Positions 40,162 to 53,200 of a stretch of DNA of 64,000 nucleotides are shown one piece after another (the stretch's first letter is position 1; each line of letters begins with the position of its first letter). The stretch spans positions 379,501-443,500 of the forward strand of contig NC_134660.1 in the NCBI RefSeq assembly GCF_030463565.1, given 5' to 3'. The translations under genes were made by a program, and so were the position numbers. The notes below the pieces were generated by a model that was given only the letters and a program-made list of their open reading frames with translations, did not search any database and was not told where the DNA came from. The stretch is from Pelecanus crispus (taxonomy: Eukaryota; Chordata; Aves; Pelecaniformes; Pelecanidae).

Positions 40162-40171
40162 TATAAATAGG
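40162..40171 (-). promoter_or_regulatory. MEF2 consensus / TATA-like site, proximal ASB16 promoter
   Basis: Minus-strand CTATTTATAA fits the MEF2 consensus YTAWWWWTAR perfectly and also reads as a TATA element. It lies 59-68 bases upstream of the ASB16 start codon. Confidence 0.6.
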
Positions 40172-40220
40172 GCTGTGCCCCACGCACAAATGCTGAATCA
40201 AGAGCTCAAGCCAGGCCGCC

Positions 40221-50200: not shown

Positions 50201-53200
50201 ATGAGTTTTGGGGTGCCCTGTCCTCGGGGTAGATCGGCCGTGCCCGGGGGGGGGGATCGCCCCGGTCCCCAGCCCCACGGCAGCCGGTGCCGTGCCCGGG
50301 GGACAGGCGCCCACCGGGGATTTTTAGCGCCAGGTCCCTGAGCCGCTCGGTGCCCACCGTGGTCCTGGCTGTGCCGGGGGATCGCGGCGTCGCCCCGCCG
50401 GGATGTGGGTTCCTCGGCTGCTCCGCGCTGGCTTGGGGGGGCGGATTTGGGTGCTGGGTGCGGCCGCCCAGGGGTGGGTGCTGCCGTGGTGGCACGGAGT
50501 GCGGAGAGGTGGCCGCGGTCTGGCACCGGGGGCTTAAGCGTGGCACGGTGGGGGGCTGCGGTGGGGCACAGTGTGATGGTGTGGGGGTGTGCATGCCCTC
50601 ACACGGGTGTGCAAAGGGGAGAGCTGCTCTCCTTGCACGGGCATGCATGGGTGTGCAAGGGGGAGAGCTGCTCTCCTTGCACGGGTGTGCATGGGTGTGC
50701 AAGGGGGAGAGCTGCTCTCCTTGCACAGGTGTGCCAGGGGGAGAGCTGCTGTCCTTGCACGGGCTTGCATGGGTGTGCAAGGGGGAGAGCTGCTCTCCTT
50801 GCACGGGTGTGCCAAGGGGAGAGCTGCTGTCCTTGCACAGGTGTGCATGGGTGTGCAAGGGGGAGAGCTGCTGTCCTTGCACAGGCGTGCATGGGTGTGC
50901 AAGGGGGAGAGCTGCTCTCCTTGCACGGGCGTGCATGGGTGTGCAAGGGGGAGAGCTGCTCTCCTTGCACAGGTGTGCATGGGTGTGCAAGGGGGAGAGC
51001 TGCTGTCCTTGCACAGGTGTGCATGGGTGTGCAAGGGAGAGAGCTGCTCTCCTTGTACGGGTGTGCCAGGGGGAGAGCTGCTGTCCTTGCACGGGTGTGC
51101 ATGGGTGTGCAAGGGGGAGAGCTGCTCTCCTTGCACGGGCGTGCACGGGGCTGACTCCTTGCACGGTCGACCCCAGCGCCGGCAGCGCTGCCCGCCCTGG
51201 CCTGCCCCGCGGCCCCGTTACCCGCAGGACACCCCCCTTGCACCCCCGTGGGGGGGTCCCCCCCTGCAGGGGGAGCTGGTGCACTGGCCTGGGGGCCCTT
51301 TGGTTTGGGGGTGCCGTGGGCACCGAGGGGTTAAGCAGCCCCCGTGCATCCCGGGGAAGGGGCCGGATCCCCGGATCCGTGGGGGCTGGCGTGGGGCTGC
51401 GGGCTGGTGGCACAGGGTGGTGGCCCCCACGGCAGGGTGGTGGCCCCGGCCCCTCGCCAGCCCAAAGCCACTTCTGAGCCCCTAAGTGCAGGTTTGGCTG
51501 GGGCTGGGCCGGCTCCTGCCCCGGCCCCTCCCGGGGCTATTTTTAGCCCCCCCGGGTGCCACCCCCCCCACCCCGCTGCTGGGTGCTGCCACCCCCCATC
51601 GCACACCAACACCCACTGGAGGTGCGTGTCCCCAAAATGGGGGGCTGCAGGGGCACCCCTATGCGCTGCCCCAAATCTGCCCCCGGGTGTGGGGCAGCCC
51701 CAGGGCCAACCCCCCCGGGGGTGAGTTGGGATGGGGGGGGCTGGGTGTTCCCCCTGCCCCGCGGCCCCTCTTGCGTGTCAGGGGGGCTGGCACTGACTGT
51801 GGGGCTGCTTGGCGCTGGGGGCACTGGTACATACTGGGGGGGCTGGTTCATGCTGGGGGGGGCCGGTGGGTACTGGGGAGTGCGGCGTGGTACTGGGAAA
51901 GGGGCACCGGCAGGTTCTGGGGGGGCTGGCAGAGCGGGGGGGTCGGTGCCCGAGCTCCGCGGCACGATGCCGGTGACGTCCGCGGGTCCGTCCCGGGCAC
52001 ACGTCAGTGCCCGACGTGCAGCCGCGCGCGCCGCGGGGGGCCGGGGCGCATTAGCATGCAGCGCGCGCCCCCCGCCCCCGCCTTCCTGTTTGCGTGGGGA
52101 TGGGGTCCCCCCCCCGCCGGACCCCTCGGAACGGGGAGGGGGCAGGGGCCCGGATGCCTGGGCTCCTTCCCCGCGTCCTTCGCTGGGGGGGGGGCTCAGG
52201 GCTTGCTGGGGGGGTTCTGCCTGTCCCTGGGTTGGGGCTTTAGGGGGGGATGTGTTGGGAGGGGGCGCGATCCTGCCCCCCCCCCGGCTGCCCTCGGGGC
52301 CAGTTGTTGCAGGGTGCAGCTGTGGGGGCTCGGCTCATGGTGACCCCCCTGTTTTTTGAGTGGTGGAGGGAAACTGAGGCACGGGGCTGATCCAGGGTCC
52401 TTGGAGCTGGTGGGAGACCCCCGGGGTCCTGATGGGAGGGGCTGGTCCCTGACACCCCCCCCTCAGCAGCCCCCAAAATGCCCTCCATTGCTGGGAATGC
52501 CCAGCCTGCTCCCTGAGCATGCCCCAGCTGCCCCCCGGCCCCGGGACACCCCCAAACTACCCCCTAGGCGTGCCCCTGCTGCCCCCCACCCCTGGGACAC
52601 CCCCAAACTACCCCCTAGGCGTGCCCCTGCTGCCCCCCACCCCCGGGACACCCCCAAACTACCCCCTAGGCGTGCCCCTGCTGCCCCCCACCCCCGGGAC
52701 AGCCCCAGACAGCCCCCTATGCGTACCCTAGCTAACCCCCATCCCTGGGACGCCCCAAAACACCTGCAGCTGCCCCCCATTGCTGGGGCACCCCCCCAAA
52801 ACTGCCCCTGACTGCTTTCCATCCCTGGAAAAGCCCCTGAATTGCCCCATCCCTGGGGCACCCCCAAACTACCCCCTGAACATGCCCCAACTCCCTCCCC
52901 ATCTCTGGAACATCCCCAAACTGCTCCCCGCTCCCCCCCATCCCTGGGACACCCCAAACTGCTCCCTGCTCCCCCCCATCCCTGGGACACCCTAAACTGC
53001 TCCCCACTCCCCCCATCCCTGGGACACCCCAAACTGCTCCCTGCTCCCCCCCATCCCTGGGACACCCCAAACTGCTCCCCCCCATCCCTGGGACACCCCA
53101 AACTGCTTTCCCCCCCCCATCCCTGGGACACCCCAAACTGCTCCCAGCTCCCCCCCATCCCTGGGACACCCCAAACTGCTTCCCCCCCCCATCCCTGGGA

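Follow-up and report, generated by a model that had tools for sequence, protein, structure and literature searches.

Five MEF2-type sites beside the ASB16 and HDAC5 genes of Pelecanus crispus and a candidate feedback loop at HDAC5

With reference to the locus described here, the question arises whether a group of sites fitting the binding consensus of MEF2, a regulator of muscle and nerve, serves the two genes beside which it lies, ASB16 and HDAC5, and whether the sites at HDAC5 could take part in a feedback loop. In this study, the number, position, rarity and possible function of these sites were investigated in the window, which is the whole stretch of 64,000 nucleotides of Pelecanus crispus DNA that was analysed.

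Consensus matches and the genes around them

We observed five perfect matches to the MEF2 consensus YTAWWWWTAR in the window and no others, which confirms the preliminary description, in which five such sites had been noticed near ASB16 and HDAC5. The coordinates given there hold for four of the sites, and the first one is corrected to 40161-40170 from 40162-40171 (Table 1). The consensus is its own reverse complement, so the strand of a match is uninformative; read in the direction of ASB16, site 40161 gives CTATTTATAA. Eight A/T runs of at least 8 bases were counted after 34.86 kb, and five of these eight are the MEF2 sites. The cluster is real and unusual, and two distinct groups of MEF2 elements are the interpretation we favour.

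Table 1. Positions of the MEF2-type sites, neighbouring elements and gene parts in the window
Feature	Position	Strand	Location or remark	Basis
ASB16 coding region (approximate)	37250..40103	-	start codon 40103	ends by eye
MEF2 consensus TTATAAATAG	40161..40170	.	57 bases from ASB16 start codon	pattern search
MEF2 consensus CTATAAATAA	40221..40230	.	117 bases from ASB16 start codon	pattern search
HROB coding region (approximate)	40800..44276	-		PF15072; ends by eye
MEF2 consensus CTATTTTTAG	45771..45780	.	HDAC5 promoter	pattern search and human primer match
E-box decamer GTCACGTGAC, USF/MYC-type	45792..45801	.	HDAC5 promoter	
CRE TGACGTCA	45808..45815	.	HDAC5 promoter	
Part of non-coding HDAC5 exon 1	45852..45907	+	to GT donor	donor by eye
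HDAC5 exon 2	47094..47225	+	start codon 47204	borders by eye
Second CRE TGACGTCA	48872..48879	.	HDAC5 intron 2	
A/T-rich island	48932..48987	.	HDAC5 intron 2; the three other A/T runs (at least 8 bases) after 34.86 kb	
MEF2 consensus CTATTTATAG	49559..49568	.	HDAC5 intron 2	pattern search
HDAC5 exon 3	49861..49935	+		borders by eye
MEF2 consensus CTATTTTTAG	51537..51546	.	HDAC5 intron 3	pattern search
HDAC5 exon 4	53384..53604	+	glutamine-rich class IIa domain	PF12203

The identity of HDAC5 was established from exon 4, in which the glutamine-rich class IIa domain was recognized by PF12203 (E 6.8e-22) and which was also matched by solved HDAC4 chains, so that the product of this gene is a class IIa HDAC. 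A second HDAC5 peptide compared with Pfam matched no family, and two other class IIa-like places were returned by an exon search of the genome. The gene on the other side of the cluster carries ankyrin repeats (PF00023, E 1.4e-12), and we take it to be ASB16 from the gene order and its sequence; its first-exon peptide gave no family above its cut-off. Between the two groups of sites stands a complete gene that had been missed in the preliminary description, HROB, which was identified from its joined exon peptides (PF15072, E 5.2e-33). By eye, HROB coding apparently starts at 44276, where the exon ends straight after the ATG and a GT donor follows. In a search for structured RNA, no Rfam family reached its gathering score between 39.5 and 53.5 kb.

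The HDAC5 promoter and its human counterpart

A human reference for the HDAC5 promoter is provided by published ChIP primers for the region -200/+20, with a CACGTG at about -100 (PMC6964674). Within the window, the forward primer fits best at 45773 (15/20), a score shared by an unrelated place at 50320; for the reverse primer the best fit is at 45852 (16/20), the next best being 15. The two matches together span 99 bases, are ordered and oriented as a primer pair should be, and enclose GTCACGTGAC at 45792; the unbroken words within them are ATTTTTAGC in the forward and CAAAGATGGAGG in the reverse match; the latter word, identical in the human reverse primer, opens the exon 1 part at 45852. Over 200 kb of adjoining sequence, the forward primer scored at most 14 on either strand, and the reverse primer at most 15 and 16, reaching 16/20 there once. 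Out of 2000 trials with shuffled primers, 2 and 0 gave scores as high as those observed no farther than 600 bases from the promoter. Singly, then, the primer matches are not unique, but jointly, ordered and spaced as they are at the HDAC5 promoter, they are convincing as a counterpart of the human promoter.

From these two matches it follows that the human promoter reads ATTTTTAGC at the place that is CTATTTTTAGC in the window. The last eight bases of site 45771 and the following C lie within the human promoter primer, 8 of the 10 bases of the site being matched; the primer does not reach the leading CT. This comparison between species reaches one of the five sites, by way of 20-base primers, and the primer core, when sought in the accessible literature, turned up in PMC6964674 only.

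The two other elements of the promoter were likewise counted in the window. The decamer GTCACGTGAC is found once against 0.03 expected, one being present in 3 of 100 shuffles, and the CRE TGACGTCA is found twice against 0.23 expected, both times in HDAC5 (45808 and 48872); of 100 shuffles, 2 contained two or more. One review places USF1 at the human HDAC5 promoter from -356 to -100 (PMC8222663), and PGE2 is described as raising HDAC5 protein in mouse macrophages (PMC8362890); these reports suit the E-box and the CRE, and prove neither. The HDAC5 promoter has been described as the one whose site profile is conserved in the largest number of species, in a paper whose accessible portion mentions MEF2 just in a reference (PMC6660948). 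As to further partners, no SRF CArG box (CCWWWWWWGG) and no MCAT site (CATTCCW) was detected between 39.9 and 52.5 kb.

Chance expectation and genome-wide controls

It had been estimated at the outset that 0.01 matches would be expected in the 11.4 kb of the cluster. This agrees with simple shuffling, as dinucleotide shuffles give 0.07 matches per 64 kb (0.07 x 11.4/64) and none of 100 shuffles reached five, but it is too optimistic given the A/T patchiness of the sequence. Markov simulations of orders 1-4 (60 per order) gave means of 0.02, 0.20, 0.87 and 0.77, with five matches in 0 of 60 at every order and a maximum of 4. From local zero-order composition, computed with the five sites left in, 1.99, 1.41, 0.99 and 0.68 matches are expected for half-windows of 25, 50, 100 and 250 bases, respectively. 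Among A/T runs 8-10 bases long, 5 of 43 match in the window and 15 of 481 in the preceding 200 kb (P = 0.011), a background that is not matched, its GC being 0.503 versus 0.684 in the window. Such runs match in 0 of 35 cases before 34.86 kb and in 5 of 8 cases in 34,862-64,000 (P = 1.5e-6, for a stretch picked after the data were seen), and when the letters were shuffled within those eight runs a mean of 0.29 matches was obtained, five never being reached in 20,000 trials. The value of P = 0.011 is insufficient alone because many motifs could have been named, and it would not survive correction for the hundreds that were open to the preliminary description. More weight is carried by the genome-wide control and the human match than by the P value within the window.

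As controls, 14 patterns sharing the W core were also counted in the window, and 13 of them gave 0 to 3 matches, the exception being YTTWWWWAAR with 19. In DNA with a local GC of at least 0.62, the MEF2 pattern occurs five times in the window and once in the 200 kb, and YTTWWWWAAR eight and five times. The sole match of that GC class in the preceding 200 kb is a CTAAAAATAA at position 377534 of contig C18, on which the window lies, roughly 2 kb ahead of it and with a local GC of 0.63.

Over the whole genome (1.31 Gb), the plain motif is hardly enriched, with 291,223 matches, the reversed control giving 266,993. When CTAWWWWTAG is required to be flanked by four C/G bases on both sides, 37 places remain, the reversed control having 8; SSSSSCTATTTWTAGSSSSS is found at 8 places versus 1. 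The HDAC5 intron sites 49559 and 51537 both belong to the 37 and to the 8, and the promoter site 45771 is absent from these C/G-flanked sets because of an A in its flank. The intron sites are 1,978 bases apart, and just one other pair among the 37 falls within 20 kb; if the 37 were placed randomly over 10, 30 or 100 Mb of C/G-rich DNA, which are assumed sizes, 0.27, 0.09 or 0.03 pairs closer than 2 kb would be expected. When the 37 places are sorted by sequence, our own count assigns 11 to the TATAAATA type and 5 to the CTATTTTTAG type; TATA boxes account for part of the surplus of C/G-flanked places. The six other SSSSSCTATTTWTAGSSSSS places were viewed by their open frames, and by eye L022 and probably L023, in which one open frame presumably resembles EIF4G1, are TATA-promoter-like.

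At place L025, a CTATTTTTAG (1535) and a CTATTTATAG (1574) were seen 39 bases apart in C/G-rich DNA. A genome-wide code of MEF2 site plus CRE was not supported, as the pair occurs at 5 places and its reversed control at 12; of the five, two have the same sequence. In two small contigs (C127:44263 and C281:6697), identical copies were seen in which CTATTTATAG is closely followed by TGACGTCA.

Possible control of HDAC5 and ASB16 by MEF2

Several explanations of the cluster have to be weighed. The A/T elements beside ASB16 and the one at 49559 might mainly be TATA boxes that set transcription starts, either of ASB16 or antisense, the MEF2 match being a by-product, and TATAAA is indeed present at 40162 and 40222 (plus) and at 49562 (minus); the share of TATAAATA-type places among the 37 and the look of L022 and L023 point the same way, as does an antisense intronic transcript of human HDAC5 (PMC3834536). 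That transcript, however, begins near exon 4 and not in intron 2, the two CTATTTTTAG sites at 45771 and 51537 lack TATAAA and are not TATA-like, and the sites, when read along ASB16, give TATTTATA and not TATAAATA, so that we consider this explanation rather unlikely as the main one; the TATA and MEF2 readings are mutually compatible. We find it unlikely to a higher degree that the cluster is a product of chance, arising from A/T patchiness and from one motif picked among many. The local-composition expectation of 0.7-2.0, the P value before correction for other motifs, and the observation that all five sites have at most ten A/T bases within C/G-rich DNA are in its favour, but 13 of the 14 control patterns stay at 0 to 3, the genome-wide excess is 37 versus 8, the promoter site corresponds with human, and the sites are placed at two promoters of muscle-linked genes.

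A single MEF2 hub could also be imagined, governing ASB16 and HDAC5 jointly across HROB, since the five sites fall within 11.4 kb with no other match in the window, and an extensive enhancer region surrounds the start of human ASB16 (PMC8594701). Each group of sites, however, is at its own gene and HROB, as a whole gene, intervenes, which weakens the earlier idea of one element set common to ASB16 and HDAC5; a shared hub is thus not supported, and we regard it as very improbable.

We hold it to be fairly probable, instead of these alternatives, that the five sites are MEF2-type cis elements that serve HDAC5 and ASB16 separately, the HDAC5 arm closing a negative feedback loop. In this mechanism, the MEF2 site, E-box and CRE, which lie within 45 bases upstream of exon 1, would act as one promoter block, through which MEF2, together with E-box and CRE factors, would raise HDAC5 transcription, and the single sites in introns 2 and 3 would assist that block. 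The HDAC5 protein would then bind MEF2 and repress MEF2 targets, closing a negative loop of the kind described for HDAC9. At ASB16, two MEF2 sites less than 130 bases from the start codon may help muscle expression, and the nearer one (40161) possibly doubles as a TATA element. The analysis establishes how the sites read, where they lie and how rare they are, which genes HDAC5 and HROB are, and that the HDAC5 promoter block corresponds with human. We infer the occupancy of the sites by MEF2 in this animal and the direction of its effect, and the HDAC5 intron sites and the ASB16 pair are plausible candidate elements whose function is likewise predicted.

For mammals, the binding of MEF2 at the HDAC5 proximal promoter is a statement of the literature, made in the Discussion of PMC6952333 with reference to Flavell 2008 and to Di Giorgio and Brancolini 2016, where it is added that this binding may form a negative feedback loop; both points are cited there and are not data of that paper. 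Among the accessible portions of the literature on the HDAC5 promoter with MEF2, the binding statement was found in PMC6952333 and none elsewhere. The MEF2-HDAC5 feedback is therefore already in print, and what is gained here is evidence and location, not the concept. The feedback proposed in the preliminary description is supported at the promoter site by the human ATTTTTAGC and the statement of PMC6952333, and the intron and ASB16 sites are, for their part, only statistically unusual.

Comparatively, the locus is closest to the mammalian HDAC5 proximal promoter (Flavell 2008, per PMC6952333), with the same gene, factor, promoter region and proposed feedback, and differs from that report in the intron sites and ASB16, which are absent from its passage on this subject. 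It also resembles the MEF2-HDAC9 loop (Haberland 2007, per PMC8853665), in which a class IIa HDAC gene driven by MEF2 represses MEF2, though a different paralogue is concerned and MEF2D ChIP on the HDAC9 promoter is set against sequence alone at HDAC5 here; MEF2D was described on the Hdac9 promoter in mouse nerves without Hdac4, 5 and 7 (PMC8853665). The c-JUN promoter offers a further likeness, with no shared ancestry claimed, as a single MEF2 site lies near upstream of a stimulus-regulated promoter (PMC3413818). Human ASB16 is described as a muscle-specific gene of skeletal muscle with MyoD binding at its start and enhancer chromatin from upstream of the start to intron 2, in a text whose accessible part has no occurrence of MEF2 (PMC8594701); being a muscle gene bound by MyoD, ASB16 therefore has its own reason for MEF2 sites. 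A search of the accessible literature for ASB16 and MEF2 together found no paper.

If the promoter core is common to birds and humans, MEF2 control of HDAC5 would be old and probably important, and feedback of the HDAC9 type would extend to a second class IIa HDAC. A wider reading is possible, though we hold it only tentatively and with more doubt than confidence, that amniote HDAC5 is under an old multi-site MEF2 control, made up of the promoter block of bird and human and two intron sites that are very rare in the genome, by which MEF2 doses its own corepressor, and that ASB16 answers MEF2 through its own promoter. The intron sites and the ASB16 pair offer exact ten-base targets for reporter or ChIP tests.

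The introns of HDAC5 hold other features as well. The A/T-rich island of intron 2 contains a MEF2-like CTATTAAAAG with one mismatch at 48945, and the segment 48872-48987, in which the CRE and then the A/T runs follow within 120 bases, looks like an enhancer by its sequence. In human HDAC5, marks of active promoters and strong enhancers are described from introns 3 to 11 (PMC3834536); they are compatible with an enhancer at 51537 but are no evidence for one. HDAC5 is also found among the genes with alternative starts in exercised muscle (PMC9308330). By eye, a tandem array with a unit like GGGGGAGAGCTGCTCTCCTTGCACGG was seen at 50580-51150 in intron 3.
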